A stretch of DNA of 64,000 nt from the NCBI RefSeq assembly GCF_016901815.1, contig NZ_JACSNR010000007.1, forward strand, positions 62,001-126,000. Reading direction: 5' to 3'. Each line of letters opens with the position of its first letter. Position 1 is the first letter of the stretch. The notes beneath the pieces were generated by a model. That model did not search any database. It had not been told where the DNA came from and worked only from the letters and a program-made list of their open reading frames with translations. Below, in pieces: positions 23,585-29,884 of the stretch. The translations under genes were made by a program, and so were the position numbers. The stretch is from Hydrogenoanaerobacterium saccharovorans (lineage in GTDB: Bacteria > Bacillota > Clostridia > Oscillospirales > Ruminococcaceae).

Positions 23585-23877
23585 ATAAACACCAAAGACG
23601 GTGATGAGGAGAGTACTCCTGCCGTAGCAGTTACAGAGAACCTCGGGAGCTGAGAAGAGGCGCTGCGAATCAGGACGAAAATGGCCTCGGAGTTGCGTAC
23701 CGAACTGGCATCAGTAAGGCTACGACGGGTTTGCCCGTTACAGCAATAGAGTATAATCCGGGATTTCCCGGCCGTACTTGATGAGGTTCCGGATGCGAGT
23801 CCGGAACGAAAAAAGGTGGTACCACGAAGCGATTTGCCTCGTCCTTTGATCGAACGATCAGAGGACGAGGCTTTTTT
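23585..23877 (+). promoter_or_regulatory. T-box riboswitch leader of metNIQ (Met)
   Basis: Full T-box leader of about 290 bases. Stem I contains GAGAGTACTCC, the apical CAGAGAACC and GAGCTGAGA elements, and the specifier loop GACGAAAATGGCC with ATG (methionine) at 23681-23683 in the same setting as the GGC of glyQS-type leaders. The T-box proper is AGGTGGTACCACG at 23814-23826. A 16-bp terminator stem (GCCTCGTCC... / ...GGACGAGGC) with TTTTTT ends at 23877. Predicted to switch on the methionine importer when tRNA-Met is uncharged. Confidence 0.92.
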
Positions 23878-23913
23878 ATTTCCCCGCGAAATCTTTCAGA
23901 GGTGACAGCTGCT

Positions 23914-24657
23914 ATGATAACCATTCAAAACCTGACCAAGACCTATCATACAAAATCCGGTGAAGTGGAAGCCCTCCGGGGCATCTCCGCCGAGATCCGG
24001 GACGGAGATATTTTCGGGATCATCGGACTTTCCGGCGCCGGCAAATCCACCCTCCTGCGGTGCATCGCCCTGTTGGAAACCCCCACTTCCGGTTCCATCT
24101 CCATTGACGGACGGGATCTCTCCTCCCTCCGGGGCCGGCAGCTCACCGAACACCGCCGGCAGATCGGCGTCATCTTCCAGGGCTACAACCTGCTGATGCA
24201 GCGCACCGTTTCCGGCAACATCGCTTTCCCGCTGGAAATTGCCGGTGTGCCCAAAGCGGAGATCCGCCGGCGCACCGAGGAGTTGATCCATCTGGTGGGG
24301 CTGGACGGCAAGGCTGATGCATATCCCTCCCAGCTCTCAGGCGGACAGTGCCAGCGGGTCGCCATCGCCCGGGCCCTCGCCAACAATCCCAAAGTGCTGC
24401 TCTGCGATGAGCCCACTTCGGCACTGGATTCCTTCACAACCAAGGCGATCCTGGACCTGCTTTCGGACATCAACCAGAAGCTGGGCGTCACCATTATCAT
24501 CATCACCCACGAGATCGGCGTGGTAAAGCAGATCTGCAGCCAGGTGGCTGTGATCGAATCCGGTCGCTTCGCGGAATATGGCGTTGCTGCTGAAGTGCTG
24601 GCTGCTCCCAGAAGCGTAGCCGCCCGGCAGCTCATTGGAGTTGGAGGTGCATTGTAA
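23914..24657 (+). CDS. metN: Methionine ABC transporter ATP-binding protein
   Basis: ATPase subunit of a MetNIQ-type importer. Walker A is [13 protein letters not shown], the Q-loop is VIFQGYNLL, the signature is [15 protein letters not shown], Walker B is [12 protein letters not shown], and the switch is ITHEIGVV. At 247 residues it lacks the long C-terminal regulatory (C2/NIL) domain of E. coli MetN that binds methionine for feedback inhibition, so control here probably rests on the T-box. ATG 23914 was chosen over GTG 23902 because the AGAGGTGA site suits it. The stop overlaps the metI start by 1 bp. Confidence 0.9.
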
Positions 24658-25325
24658 TGAACGAACTGATTGCCAGATATGCTCCCCTGCTGCTGCAGAG
24701 TCTTGAGGAAACCCTCTACATGACCGTCTTTTCCACGGTGCTTGCCTATGTATTCGGTCTGCCGCTGGGTGTGCTGGTCTATGTCACCAAGGACGGCGGC
24801 ATCCATCCCAACCGCCCGCTCAACCGGGTACTGAGCTGGTTCATCAACCTGATCCGCTCTGTCCCCTTCCTGATCCTGATTGTTGCACTCAATCCCATTT
24901 CCAAGCTCATCGCCGGTACTTCCATCGGCCCCAAGTCCTCCATCTTTGCCCTGGTGGTAGCTGCTGCTCCCTTTGTGGCCCGGATGGTGGAATCCTCCCT
25001 GGAAGAACTGGACACCGGCGTGATCGAAGCCGCCAAAACCATGGGCGCTTCGGATCTGCAGATCATCACAAAGGTTCTGCTGCCAGAAAGTGTACCCTCC
25101 CTGGTACGGGGACTTTCCATCTCTGCCATCACTCTGATTGGCTATTCGGCTATGGCCGGTGTTGTAGGCGCCGGCGGCCTTGGCGATATAGCAATTCGTT
25201 ACGGTGTACACCGCTACGAAGACTCCGTGATGTATATTACGGTGATCCTGATTGTCGTTGTGGTTCAGGTGATTCAGTCCACCTTTAACCTCACCGCCAT
25301 TCAGATCGACAAACGAAACCGGTAG
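24657..25325 (+). CDS. metI: Methionine ABC transporter permease
   Basis: A 222-residue permease with five hydrophobic helices. The coupling-helix EAA region is [22 protein letters not shown], followed by [22 protein letters not shown], which is highly typical of MetI. It pairs with MetN in the membrane. The start is coupled to metN, whose last codons contain the GGAGGTG ribosome site. Confidence 0.94.
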
Positions 25326-25415
25326 GAACTTCCGGATCTTCCCCACAACACGGAAATCCGGTCCTGCTTCCCCGGACTGCAAAGCTGTAACTAAAAAAGA
25401 AAAGAGGAATTTTCC

Positions 25416-26261
25416 ATGGACAACACCAAGAAGATCATTGCACTGGCTGCTGCCGCAGCTCTCACCCTTTCCCTGGCTGCCTGCTCGGGCAACAACTCCA
25501 GCTCCACCGCCGATAATTCCAGCTCCGATGCCTCCAGCACCGTGATCCGTGTGGGCGCTTCCCCCTCTCCCCATGCTGAGATCCTGGAATTCGCCAAGGA
25601 TCAGCTCGCTGCCAAGGGCTATGAACTGGAGATCGTAGAGTTCACTGACTATGTAATGCCCAATGTCGCCCTGTATGAAGGCGATCTGGACGCAAACTTC
25701 TTCCAGCACACCCCCTACCTCGATAACTACAACGAGCAGAACAGCACCGATCTGGTTTCGGCCTGCAAGGTTCACTTCGAGCCCATGGGCCTCTACTCCG
25801 AGACCCTGACCAGTGTTTCGGATGTGGCAGAGGGTTCCAAGGTCGGCGTTCCCAATGACCCCACCAATGAAGCCCGTGCCCTGAACCTGCTGGAAGCCCA
25901 GGGTCTCATCAAGCTCCGGGAAGGCGCTGGCCTGAACGCCACTCCCCTGGACATTGAGGAAAATCCCCTGAACCTGGAATTCGTAGAGCTGGAAGCTGCT
26001 CAGCTCCCCAGAAACCTGAGCGAGTTTGCCATCGCTGCCATCAACGGCAACTATGCCATTGAAGCCGGTATCCTGGACAAGGTTATCGTCAACGAAGCAG
26101 CTGATTCCGAGAGTGCCCAGGAATATGCCAATATCCTGGCTGTACAGAGCGGCGAGCTGGAGACCGACAAGACCAAGGCTCTGGTGGAAGCCCTCACTTC
26201 GGATGAAACCCGTGAGTTCATCAATACCCAGTATGAGGATCAGTTCATTCCCGTATTCTGA
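25416..26261 (+). CDS. metQ: MetQ/NlpA-family methionine-binding lipoprotein
   Basis: Solute-binding lipoprotein of the NlpA family. The signal peptide ends in a lipobox (SLAAC, lipidated Cys23), followed by a Ser/Asn-rich linker. The mature domain has [30 protein letters not shown]-like [30 protein letters not shown] and the C-terminal [10 protein letters not shown], all standard for MetQ. It is third in the T-box-controlled operon, 90 bp after metI, with a strong AGAGGA site and a terminator after the stop. Confidence 0.95.
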
Positions 26262-26276
26262 TTCCCCGAAATACCC

Positions 26277-26309
26277 AGAAAGCCCGGACAGATTGTCCGG
26301 GCTTTCTTA
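26277..26309 (+). terminator. Terminator of metNIQ
   Basis: AGAAAGCCCGGACA / TGTCCGGGCTTTCT, a 14-bp stem with a T/A-rich tail. It may also serve the convergent CLC gene. Confidence 0.9.
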
Positions 26310-26329: not shown

Positions 26330-27616
26330 TCAGCGGTTTCCGGCGATATACTCAGCCCGGAACTTGGAATAGAGAATCTTCTGGGCGCCGTACAGACTGC
26401 AGTACCCCGACAGCATATAGGAGACCGCACAGCACAATGCATAGAGCGGCAGTCCTGCTCCGCCGAACAGCTCATAGGCCAGCAGAATGGAGGTGAGTGG
26501 GCAGTTGGTCACGCCGCAGAACACCCCTGCCAGCCCCAGACCCGCCCCAAAGGAGGCGGGCAGTCCGCAGACCGGCGCCAGGACACAGCCCAGCGTAGCA
26601 CCGGTGAAGAAGGCCGGTGCAATATCCCCTCCCTTGTACCCGGCTCCAAGAGTTACGGAGGTGAAGAGGATCTTCAGCAGGAAGGCCTCCGGGCGGGCTT
26701 CTCCGGCAAAGGCCCGGATCACAACATCGGTGCCGGCGCCGTTATACGCCTGGGAGCCTGCCAGAAGGGTCAGCAAAATCAGCAGTCCGCCGCCTGTGAG
26801 GATGCGGAAATAGGGATTCGGCAGCAGTCTGCCGTAAGCATAGCGGGCAAAGCGCAGTCCGGAACAGAACAGCCGGGCAGCCAGGGCACAGGCGGCGCCC
26901 ATCAGAGCCACCTGCCCGATAGAAACCAGCGACAAAGCTGGTACCGCCGCAACCTGGTAGGCATCAGCCGGAAGCCCCATGGCACCGGTCACCAGGAAAG
27001 AGCAGAAGGCGGAGAGCAGGCAGGGAAAGAACGCCGCATAGTACATCTCTCCTACGCTGATCACCTCCATGGCAAAGACAGCAGCCGTCAGGGGTGTGCC
27101 GAACAGCGCCGAAAATCCTGCCGCCATGCCGCACATGGTCATAATATGGCAGTCCTTCTCGTCCATTCTTGCCCAATGGCCCAGCGCCCCGGAAATGGAG
27201 CCGCCCATCTGCAGGGCTGCCCCCATCCGTCCTGCCGAGCCGCCGCACAGATGGGTCAGCACAGTGGATACGGCAATCAGCGGCACCATGCGCAGCTGTA
27301 CGCCGGGATTGGTCCGAACAGACAGCAGCATATAGTCCGTACCCGGATCGGTACTGAGGCCGCAGGAACGGTACAGCCATACAATGAGGAGTCCCGCCAG
27401 CGGAACCGCAAACAACAGCGCCGGATGCTGGGCCCGGGACTGCACCGCCCAGGAAACAGCCATGCGGAACAGTCCGATCACCGTTCCGACGCTGCCTCCG
27501 ACCAGCAGTGCAGCTACCGCCCACCGGATAAATTTCCCGACCTCTCCGGCTCCTGTATGTACTGTTTCCGCTGCCTGATGCTGCAGCTTTGCCATTTCTG
27601 TCCTCTTGTCCGACAT
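26330..27616 (-). CDS. CLC-family chloride/fluoride transporter-like protein
   Basis: A 428-residue CLC-fold membrane protein with about 12 to 14 hydrophobic segments. The selectivity-filter regions are LTHLCGGSAGRMGAALQMGG (residues 120-140) and GYKGGDIAPAFFTGATLG, and the C-terminal GVTNCPLTSILLAYELFG is typical. Its general pattern (THL.GGSAGR, GGDIAPAFF) resembles the CLC-F fluoride/proton antiporter branch more than E. coli ClcA. The gating/proton glutamate of the GREG motif is replaced by Met131 (GRMG). No CBS domains. Start ATG 27616 follows AGGAGGA; it is transcribed alone from its own promoter. Confidence 0.85.
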   Translation of the reverse strand: MSDKRTEMAKLQHQAAETVHTGAGEVGKFIRWAVAALLVGGSVGTVIGLFRMAVSWAVQSRAQHPALLFAVPLAGLLIVWLYRSCGLSTDPGTDYMLLSVRTNPGVQLRMVPLIAVSTVLTHLCGGSAGRMGAALQMGGSISGALGHWARMDEKDCHIMTMCGMAAGFSALFGTPLTAAVFAMEVISVGEMYYAAFFPCLLSAFCSFLVTGAMGLPADAYQVAAVPALSLVSIGQVALMGAACALAARLFCSGLRFARYAYGRLLPNPYFRILTGGGLLILLTLLAGSQAYNGAGTDVVIRAFAGEARPEAFLLKILFTSVTLGAGYKGGDIAPAFFTGATLGCVLAPVCGLPASFGAGLGLAGVFCGVTNCPLTSILLAYELFGGAGLPLYALCCAVSYMLSGYCSLYGAQKILYSKFRAEYIAGNR

Positions 27617-27669: not shown

Positions 27670-27698
27670 ATTCTACCATTCCAATCCCCCGGTTTCAA
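27670..27698 (-). promoter_or_regulatory. Promoter of the CLC gene
   Basis: Minus-strand TTGAAA, 17 bp, TAGAAT with extended -10 TGG, about 55 bases before the start. Confidence 0.65.
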
Positions 27699-27735: not shown

Positions 27736-27764
27736 AAAAAATCCCCCCGCACAGGCGGAGGGAT
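27736..27764 (-). terminator. Terminator after the helicase-loader gene
   Basis: Minus-strand stem ATCCCTCCGC / GCGGGGGGAT followed by TTTTT, 12 bp after the stop. Confidence 0.85.
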
Positions 27765-27775
27765 CAGGGTTGCTG

Positions 27776-28750
27776 CTATCGCTTCAGGATGCGGATGTCA
27801 TTGCCCAGGAACGGGATCGTATAATACCCGCCCATGATCCGGGAAACAACACGGGGAGAATACCGGGCTTCCAGCTCCTTGGCGGTCAGGTTGCTGGAAA
27901 TAATGGTGGGCTTTCCTTCAACCAGCCGGGAGTTGATGATATTGTAGATCACCGACACCGAGAAGTTGGTGGAGAACTCCGCCCCCAGATCGTCCAGGAT
28001 CAGCAGATCGCAGTCCAGCACAAAGTTGAGGGAATAGCTCTCCTCTCCCCGGCGGAACCGCTCCCGCTCCAGGGTTTCCAGCAGGGTCTGAGCCGGTGTG
28101 TAGAGGACATTGTACCCCTTGCGGATCACCTCTTTGGCAATGGACAGGGACAGATGGGTTTTGCCCAGACCTGTCTTGCCCTGGAAGAACATACTCCGGC
28201 TGGACGGTGTGAAGGTGTCGGCATAGTTCCGGCACTCCTCCAATGCCCGCCGCATCACGTCCCGGGCAGAGGATTTCGATCCGGGCAGCGGCTCCGCAGG
28301 ATAGTAGTCCAGCGAAAAGCTCGCAAAGGAGATGTTATCGGTATTGGCAGTATGGGAGAGCCGTTCCAGCATCAGCCCCGCCAGAAGATCCTTCACGCAG
28401 TGGCACATCTTCCCGTCTGTATAACCGGTATCCTTGCAGTCTTCACAGGTGAAGTGCATCTCGTCATAATCCTCCGGCAGGCCGGCCTCCCGGAGCAGTT
28501 CCCGCTTGTGCTGCTGCATATACAGATTGGTGTCCCGCAGACGGGCCAGCTTCTGCTCCACATCCACCCCGGACAGCACAGTCCGGGCGATGGCGGCACT
28601 GGTGCCGGTCAGCTCCCGGCGCAGTTCCTCCACTGCCGGAGCCTTCTCCCGGATCACCTGCAGCCGGTACTGATAGTCGTTCCGGGCCTGGCTGCGCCGT
28701 TCTGCAAGGGTTTCAAACGCCTTGTCCATTATCTCCTTGGGATATGCCAT
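27776..28750 (-). CDS. Replicative helicase loader, DnaI/DnaC type
   Basis: A 324-residue AAA+ ATPase that loads DnaB-type helicase. The N-terminal part is helical and contains a zinc-type motif CEDCKDTGYTDGKMCHC (near residue 105). The AAA+ core has Walker A FFQGKTGLGKTHLS, Walker B CDLLILDDLGAE and sensor segment PTIISSNLT. It follows the DnaD-domain gene by 14 bp, the usual DnaD-DnaI primosome pair in Firmicutes. Confidence 0.92.
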   Translation of the reverse strand: MAYPKEIMDKAFETLAERRSQARNDYQYRLQVIREKAPAVEELRRELTGTSAAIARTVLSGVDVEQKLARLRDTNLYMQQHKRELLREAGLPEDYDEMHFTCEDCKDTGYTDGKMCHCVKDLLAGLMLERLSHTANTDNISFASFSLDYYPAEPLPGSKSSARDVMRRALEECRNYADTFTPSSRSMFFQGKTGLGKTHLSLSIAKEVIRKGYNVLYTPAQTLLETLERERFRRGEESYSLNFVLDCDLLILDDLGAEFSTNFSVSVIYNIINSRLVEGKPTIISSNLTAKELEARYSPRVVSRIMGGYYTIPFLGNDIRILKR

Positions 28751-28764
28751 GAGTCATCTCCTCC

Positions 28765-29748
28765 TCACCGGTTCATAAAATCTGCAAGCACCCGGTCTTC
28801 AATCTCCTGGATGTTGTAAGAGGTTTCGCCTCCCTGCACCGGCGCACGGCGGGCCGACGCATTGGCTGCATCCGCCGCAGTCCGCACTCCCTCCCGGTGC
28901 CAGTTCTGAAGCACTTTATTGATATAGGCAAAACTGAGCTTTCCGGTGTTCTCCACGGCACGCTCATAGGCCAGCCGGATCACATCGATCCCATAGCCCA
29001 GCTCTCCGTACCAGGAGGCGATCATCTCCTTTTCCCGGGTGGTCAGGCTGCGGTCGTTGATGCCGAATGCCGCCCGGACCTGCCCCTCATTGGAGTGCCT
29101 CCGGCTGAGATAGTCAATGTACCGCTCTGCCTCCGGAACTGTGTCGATTCCCTTCTCCTGCCAGCTGGCGGCGGTTTTCTCCACATAGCGCATGCTCAGT
29201 TTATCGATGGATTTGCAGTAGCCCATCACCGTGAGGATAAACTCCGGCGACAGCCCATAATAGGCATAGAGCGCCGTCAGGCACTGCATATCCATGGAGG
29301 TAAGCGTGCTGCCGATGATCTCCTGCGCCTTGTGCAGCAGGCTCATCAGTGTATTGTCCCGGGCAGCCAGTTCCGCGCACTCCGCCCGGGTGAACCGGCG
29401 GGAATCCGCCGTGATCACAGTACGGCGGGGCTCCTCCCGGGCCATTTCCCGGGCTGGGGCAGCAACCACTGCCGCCGGTTCCGGATTGGGGGCAGCGGTA
29501 TGTTCCCCGTCCCCCTCGGACCGGAGCAGGCCGCAGTTCTCCCAGTAGAGCGCCGCATCCCGAATGTCCGCCGGGTCCTGCCGCAGAAAGGCCGCGATCT
29601 CCTGGTCGGACATAGCCCTGCCCTGGCGCAGCAAGAGGAGCAGCACCTTGAGCTGGAGCACCCCGCAGAGCCGCAGATGCTGATCTACAACGGCTGCCGG
29701 TACTGCAAACGCCGCCCCCATATTTTCAAAATTGACACTGTATTTCAA
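28765..29748 (-). CDS. DnaD-domain replication initiation protein
   Basis: A 327-residue primosome protein. The N-terminal winged-helix part (KYSVNFENMGAAFAVPAAVVDQHLRLCGVLQLKVLLLLL) is followed by a low-complexity linker rich in Ala, Glu and Pro and by two DnaD/DDBH2 helical repeats, one near residues 140-220 (CLTALYAYYGLSPEFILTVMGYC) and one near 235-300 (MIASWYGELGYGIDVIRLAYERAVE, ending YINKVLQNWHREGV). TTG at 29748 is taken as start because AAAGGAA sits 9 bases upstream and the protein then begins with the family-like KYSVNF. A GTG at 29778 is the alternative. Confidence 0.87.
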   Translation of the reverse strand: MKYSVNFENMGAAFAVPAAVVDQHLRLCGVLQLKVLLLLLRQGRAMSDQEIAAFLRQDPADIRDAALYWENCGLLRSEGDGEHTAAPNPEPAAVVAAPAREMAREEPRRTVITADSRRFTRAECAELAARDNTLMSLLHKAQEIIGSTLTSMDMQCLTALYAYYGLSPEFILTVMGYCKSIDKLSMRYVEKTAASWQEKGIDTVPEAERYIDYLSRRHSNEGQVRAAFGINDRSLTTREKEMIASWYGELGYGIDVIRLAYERAVENTGKLSFAYINKVLQNWHREGVRTAADAANASARRAPVQGGETSYNIQEIEDRVLADFMNR

Positions 29749-29884
29749 GATCCAACCGTTCCTTTCCGGCACAAACACTATGTAAAGTCAGTTTCCTTTA
29801 CACTTAAAAAGTGGCCTGTTTTCCGGCTGTTCACGCACAAACCAGCCGGTGGGCCCCTTTTACTCTCTTTTATCAGGCAGAGAT

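Follow-up and report, generated by a model that had tools for sequence, protein, structure and literature searches.

An intact CLC-F-related gene of Hydrogenoanaerobacterium saccharovorans carries methionine in place of the gating glutamate

Introduction

It has long been asked which residues distinguish CLC channels from CLC antiporters, and so far this has mostly been addressed with laboratory mutants. In the CLC-F cycle, according to excerpts of the published work, E118 of CLC-Eca is Glu_ex and E318 is Glu_in; M79 occupies the position of the chloride-binding serine (PMC12035849). T320 of the same protein is given as a fluoride-binding residue, and the exchange T320A inhibited transport (PMC11077948, in excerpt). 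For ClcA of Escherichia coli, binding of chloride at the central site is ascribed to Y445 (PMC4188032, in excerpt).

A gene of Hydrogenoanaerobacterium saccharovorans poses this question in a natural setting, as it codes for a CLC-type protein with methionine at the position of the gating glutamate. Does such a protein still move ions, and would it do so with or without protons? The gene lies in a stretch of 64,000 nucleotides, which was analyzed as a whole and is called the window here (contig NZ_JACSNR010000007.1, positions 62,001 to 126,000). The initial annotation of this DNA had assigned the protein to the CLC family, with a resemblance to the CLC-F branch, and had suggested passive transport or a changed selectivity. 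Here we combine sequence comparison, phylogeny, structure prediction and analysis of the locus.

Results

The gene is intact and its product belongs to the CLC superfamily

The reading frame on the reverse strand starts with ATG and runs through 428 codons with zero internal stops or frameshifts (Table 1). Voltage_CLC was the sole Pfam match of the protein above the cut-off (E = 3.8e-54, residues 75-403), and the nearest solved structures by sequence were entries of the F-/H+ antiporter CLC-Eca (E 7.8e-59 to 1.6e-57). An AlphaFold2 model, calculated from the window protein together with 18 relatives, reached a mean pLDDT of 85.4 and a pTM of 0.85. The best VIA-align matches of this model were 6d0j, 6d0k (E118Q) and 6d0n (V319G) with Z 55.4-55.6 and an rmsd of 2.2 over 393 residues, compared to Z 43.0 for E. 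coli ClcA (1ots), and Foldseek likewise matched it to CLC structures. By both domain and fold the protein is a member of the CLC superfamily. We are confident that the predicted fold is CLC-F-like and well kept; the fold is silent on function.

The sequence around Met131 reads GGSAGRMGAALQ and the filter stretch reads THLCGGSAGRMGAALQMGG. Reading the codon directly (27226-27224) confirmed GRMGA with Met131 (ATG) at the glutamate position, as initially annotated, and the motifs THLCGGSAGR and ELFG are present as quoted there. GGDIAPAFF, which had been called well kept, also has the letters as quoted, but its GGD departs from the GGE of all 170 relatives. Thr93 aligns with CLC-Eca M79. A loss of the pore tyrosine, which would have matched engineered ClcA double mutants, had been suspected from the stretch SGYCSLY; it was rejected, as the counterpart of CLC-Eca Y396 and ClcA Y445 in the alignment is the retained Tyr409.

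Table 1. Features of the CLC locus; coordinates are positions in the window.
Feature	Position	Strand	Basis or remark
Gene of the CLC-type membrane protein, 428 aa, without gating glutamate	26330..27616	-	ORF, Pfam, structure matches
Codon 131, ATG (Met), gating glutamate position (CLC-Eca E118)	27224..27226	-	read directly and by alignment
Codon 331, GAT (Asp), position of CLC-Eca E318 (Glu_in)	26624..26626	-	alignment; Glu in 170/170 relatives
Codon 333, GCA (Ala), position of CLC-Eca T320	26618..26620	-	alignment; relatives: Val 148/170, Ala 0/170
Codon 94, Asp, GTN loop, adjoins the CLC-Eca M79 position	27335..27337	-	relatives: Asn 163/170, Asp 5/170
Codon 409, conserved pore Tyr (ClcA Y445, CLC-Eca Y396)	26390..26392	-	Tyr in 170/170
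Promoter-like site ahead of the CLC gene	27670..27698	-	10/12 consensus match only, TG before second hexamer
Terminator-like hairpin in the gap to the upstream dnaC-like gene	27740..27765	-	
Terminator-like hairpin of 14 pairs in the gap to the convergent NlpA-lipoprotein gene	26277..26307	scored +	symmetric by sequence

The residue changes are rare among relatives

For comparison, 170 different relatives were picked by BLAST (E 1e-20 or better), including two rows of the canonical CLC-F type. They came from 120 searched genomes, among them the source genome itself, from named genomes whose scan gave 19 loci and, among the matches listed, from 396 genomes of the same family (100 matches fetched by place plus automatic loci). 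G279, G298 and a copy in G029 were left out; the latter (G029:C138:4973-6147) lies in two stretches, one of them with an internal TGA, and looks broken.

Among the matches listed, column 131 was Glu in 169 relatives and Gly in one (L007), and column 331 was Glu in every one of the 170, compared to Asp in the window protein. An enlarged set of 201 rows, to which 398 searched genomes of the phylum and two references also contributed, gave 199 Glu, one Gly and one gap in column 131. An exact degenerate DNA pattern for GRMG, which near variants would escape, matched in 9 of 394 genomes of the order. The sole CLC among these matches was the window's own; the loci matched in the other eight genomes were free of CLC relatives at E 1e-5. 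The codons of the relatives inspected are GAG or GAA at position 131, so that Met131 requires two or three base changes and a single base error fails to explain it.

Besides the window protein, L007 (G024:C24:3953-5140) also lacks the gating glutamate. It reads GGSSGRGSAALQ and keeps GGE, and its change is possibly an error, since two nearby base changes in CGT GGA AGT would give GREG. The Arg before the gating glutamate is near-invariant as well, a small subgroup having Cys (L168, L170, L171 and L172) or Val (L169) in its place (GCEG/GVEG).

Never-seen residues were counted in a set of 173 rows, for which Glu at 331, a residue other than Thr at 333 and Tyr at 409 were required. This filter removed 15 canonical-type rows and 14 rows of other CLC groups, none of them from the sister clade described below as judged by the motifs of all but L050. 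The count for column 331 was taken from the 170 BLAST-chosen rows because the filter itself demands Glu331. With 10 never-seen residues the window protein stands above the row median of 2 and is exceeded by seven of the 173 rows; the lack of close relatives (the nearest is 58% identical) explains part of this number. As site positions we defined 93, 131, 331, 333 and 409, four of them from the published work and the last as counterpart of CLC-Eca Y396, which we take to be a site residue. Never-seen residues occupy three of these five (131, 331 and 333). The corresponding hypergeometric P = 1.2e-4 is descriptive, because the set was chosen after these three changes had been seen and the row filter drew in part on columns 331, 333 and 409. 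Any never-seen site residue occurred in just two other rows of the 173 (L054 at 93 and L007 at 131).

The protein sits in a clade sister to canonical CLC-F

A quick maximum-likelihood tree was calculated from 106 rows after removal of columns 93, 94, 131, 331 and 333. The window protein fell within a clade of 84 rows with an SH-aLRT support of 99. CLC-Eca and the other canonical CLC-F rows stood outside this clade, and both groups together were split from other CLCs with a support of 98. The canonical rows as one clade are not firm (support 54). Within the sister clade, the nearest relative of the window protein is L002 (support 94), whose genome belongs to the same order but to a different family. 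The resemblance to CLC-F seen in the initial annotation has to be stated more narrowly, as the protein belongs to the sister clade.

The sister clade is marked by the motifs GTN, GREGAALQ and GGEIVP. In canonical-type rows, position 93 is Met (9/15) or Asn (6/15), position 333 mostly Thr (13/15) and the gating position always Glu (15/15), compared to Thr93, Ala333 and Met131 in the window protein. Of the canonical CLC-F site residues, the tyrosine at Y396 is the one found (Tyr409), while the residues of E118, E318, M79 (or Asn) and T320 are absent. As the window protein shares Thr at the M79 position and the absence of Thr at the T320 position with its relatives, these two missing CLC-F site residues are a trait of the sister clade and not of this protein alone. 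It is 40-57% identical to the first 48 members inspected and differs from them by Met and Asp at the positions where relatives keep Glu131 and Glu331. The finding also draws attention to a large clade in Clostridia that is sister to CLC-F; searches of the open-licence literature, which were not aimed at the clade by name, returned no mention of it.

Conservation outside the site is ordinary

The end branch of the window protein in the tree was 0.66, compared to a median of 0.58. At columns conserved to at least 90, 95 and 98%, it shows 4, 3 and 2 departures (row medians 2, 0 and 0; 170 of 171 rows used). These numbers were reached or passed by 27, 24 and 15 of the 170 rows, the window included, and since 24 rows come to three or more at the 95% level, decay is not general. 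Pairwise dN/dS between the window gene and three near relatives was 0.30-0.31, compared to 0.32-0.37 among those relatives. This ratio is silent on constraint after the Met change, because it averages over the branch and dS comes close to saturation (1.0-1.5 in the pairwise comparisons). GC3 of the gene was 0.71, with 0.67-0.77 in five neighbours. A pseudogene or general decay was rejected as the leading interpretation in view of the intact reading frame and the ordinary branch length and dN/dS; it is retained below as a rival, in the form of a transporter that folds but is dead.

The CLC gene is probably transcribed alone, and no fluoride riboswitch was found in the window

The CLC gene is probably transcribed alone, as judged from the terminator-like hairpins on both sides and the promoter-like site upstream (Table 1). 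Three such promoter-like sites occur in the region, compared to 0.7 +/- 1.1 in shuffles. Upstream on the same strand lie genes for an IstB/DnaC-like ATPase and a DnaB_2 replication-initiation protein (27776-29778, -). Convergent to the CLC gene, a T-box leader is followed by genes for an ABC ATPase, a permease and an NlpA-type lipoprotein (23592-26261, +), which we take to be MetNIQ-like. Among 65 flanked stretches, including that of the window, no neighbourhood was widely conserved: the two widest clusters comprised 7 loci each, one being ABC transporter gene-like by eye and the other confined to L037 and L039-L044. Wider neighbour clusters were reading-frame shadows of the CLC gene, as judged from their coordinates.

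The source genome (completeness 99.58%) yielded no second CLC and no CrcB at E 0.001; the same CrcB search was positive in 10 of 14 control genomes. Two other genomes of the genus were available: G001 had no CLC match and G002 (88% complete) had a distant CLC, 27% identical and with one stop inside.

A fluoride riboswitch upstream of canonical CLC-F genes is common, though not universal. At the Rfam gathering score none was found within the window, and 40 further loci were also negative (37 of sister-clade relatives, 2 of canonical type with short flanks and 1 own). Neither a fluoride-resistance operon nor riboswitch control was found for the CLC locus, and this reading was rejected. The one fluoride riboswitch of the genome lies on another contig (G000:C2:192874-192948, -, 42 bits), just upstream of a Na+/H+ exchanger gene in the region G000:C2:191653-192948 (L076, L216, L218). 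The exchanger profile match is split over two frames (192663-192791 and 191653-192648), which may reflect a broken gene or an assembly error.

Discussion

How might this protein work? Starting from the residues, their rarity, the clade and the predicted fold, we favour the explanation that it acts as an uncoupled passive anion conduit, with Cl- more likely than F-, and put the probability of this at roughly one half. Glu_ex is replaced by Met, Glu_in by Asp and the residue at the T320 position is Ala, while the protein retains its pore tyrosine, its filter glycines and its conservation overall. Met131 would offer no titratable side chain, neither as a competitor of the anion nor as a proton carrier; having no proton to give, it would leave anions to move passively and uncoupled down their electrochemical gradient, and the ion carried would be Cl- rather than F-. 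The contrast of changed site residues with an intact reading frame, an ordinary branch and dN/dS, matching GC3, a kept fold and a promoter-like site speaks for this. Several observations count against it: T320A is inhibitory in CLC-Eca, although nearly all of the sister clade lacks Thr at this position; ORF 1290 of Streptococcus mutans, an intact paralogue that carries Met at T320, shows barely any F- transport (PMC11077948, in excerpt); Asp331 keeps an acid at Glu_in, which would be odd if coupling were simply gone; and the variant comes from one genome, the two further genomes of the genus that were compared having no close copy, and shows the 10 never-seen residues. The passive transport or changed selectivity proposed at the outset is the best fit to the altered Glu_ex, Glu_in and T320 positions in an intact gene with a kept predicted fold, but its support comes by analogy. 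More tentatively, we suggest that Glu-bearing, antiporter-like ancestors gave rise to an uncoupled uniporter or channel, probably for Cl-, in which Glu_ex, Glu_in and T320 changed together, as a natural counterpart of E118Q/A.

The main rival is a protein that is folded but dead in transport and on its way to loss, whose pore residues changed once transport was no longer selected. S. mutans ORF 1290 sets the precedent, being folded, dimeric, nearly inactive and different at T320 (PMC11077948, in excerpt). In the case of the window protein, too, the changes fall on ion-site residues, the two other genomes of the genus compared offer no close copy, and the excess of never-seen residues over the median, though read with a nearest relative at 58% in mind, fits this picture. 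However, 428 codons without stop or frameshift, the three departures at columns conserved to at least 95%, a number shared or passed by many rows, and a dN/dS no higher than among the three relatives argue against it. The gene is also the sole CLC of its genome at E 0.001, and therefore no spare paralogue is present there. On balance, we consider a dead transporter rather unlikely. A relocation of proton coupling, with Asp94 in the central-site loop and Asp331 forming a new path in place of Glu131, appears improbable to us. N94D does put an acid beside the CLC-Eca M79 position and Asp331 retains one at Glu_in, but the five relatives of the 170 with Asp94 all keep GREG and GGE, so Asp94 is not tied to the loss of the glutamate, and we know of no CLC antiporter that works without Glu_ex. 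Slightly less probable still is an error of sequencing or assembly, or a mutation of this isolate in a species that normally has Glu. The comparison does contain one genome of the species only, but Met131 takes two or more base changes, Asp331 and Ala333 take at least one more apiece, and the genome is nearly complete; several separate changes at functionally linked sites make read errors unlikely.

The window protein can be compared with several known CLC proteins. CLC-Eca is the best match of the window protein both in sequence (33% over 377 aligned residues) and in fold (Z 55.6), and it shares the tyrosine of Tyr396 and an acid at the E318 position. In contrast, the window protein has Met, Asp, Ala and Thr at the positions of E118, E318, T320 and M79, it stands outside the canonical CLC-F rows on the tree and the window holds no fluoride riboswitch. 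The mutants E118Q and E118A of CLC-Eca reportedly stop F- and H+ transport and allow an uncoupled Cl- flux. E. coli ClcA shares the fold, and Glu_ex is replaced as in its E148A and E148Q mutants; it differs by its low identity (22%), by GSGIP and GREGP where the window protein has GTDYM and GRMGA, and by Ile at the E318 position. In ClcA, E148A abolished secondary-active transport and allowed passive permeation (PMC4188032, in excerpt), and E148A/E203Q abolished proton transport with Cl- flux kept (PMC10778697, in excerpt).

S. mutans ORF 1290 resembles the window protein as an intact CLC-F relative with an altered T320 position. According to the excerpt, this paralogue transports 17 vs 830 F-/s, has most other fluoride-binding residues conserved and occurs beside an active paralogue (PMC11077948), whereas a single CLC was found in the genome studied here. 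The ClC-K channels, ClC-Ka and ClC-Kb, share the natural non-acidic replacement of the gating glutamate, in their case by valine, but are barttin-requiring chloride channels of the animal kidney (PMC4188032, in excerpt) and not a bacterial protein of 428 aa. Natural loss of the gating glutamate is therefore already known from ClC-K; the variant in a CLC-F-related bacterial branch is counted as new, searches of open-licence papers having shown no report of such a loss in the CLC-F branch. With a natural protein changed at Glu_ex, Glu_in and T320, and with its Glu-bearing relatives as controls, the question of what separates CLC antiporters from channels becomes testable by comparison.
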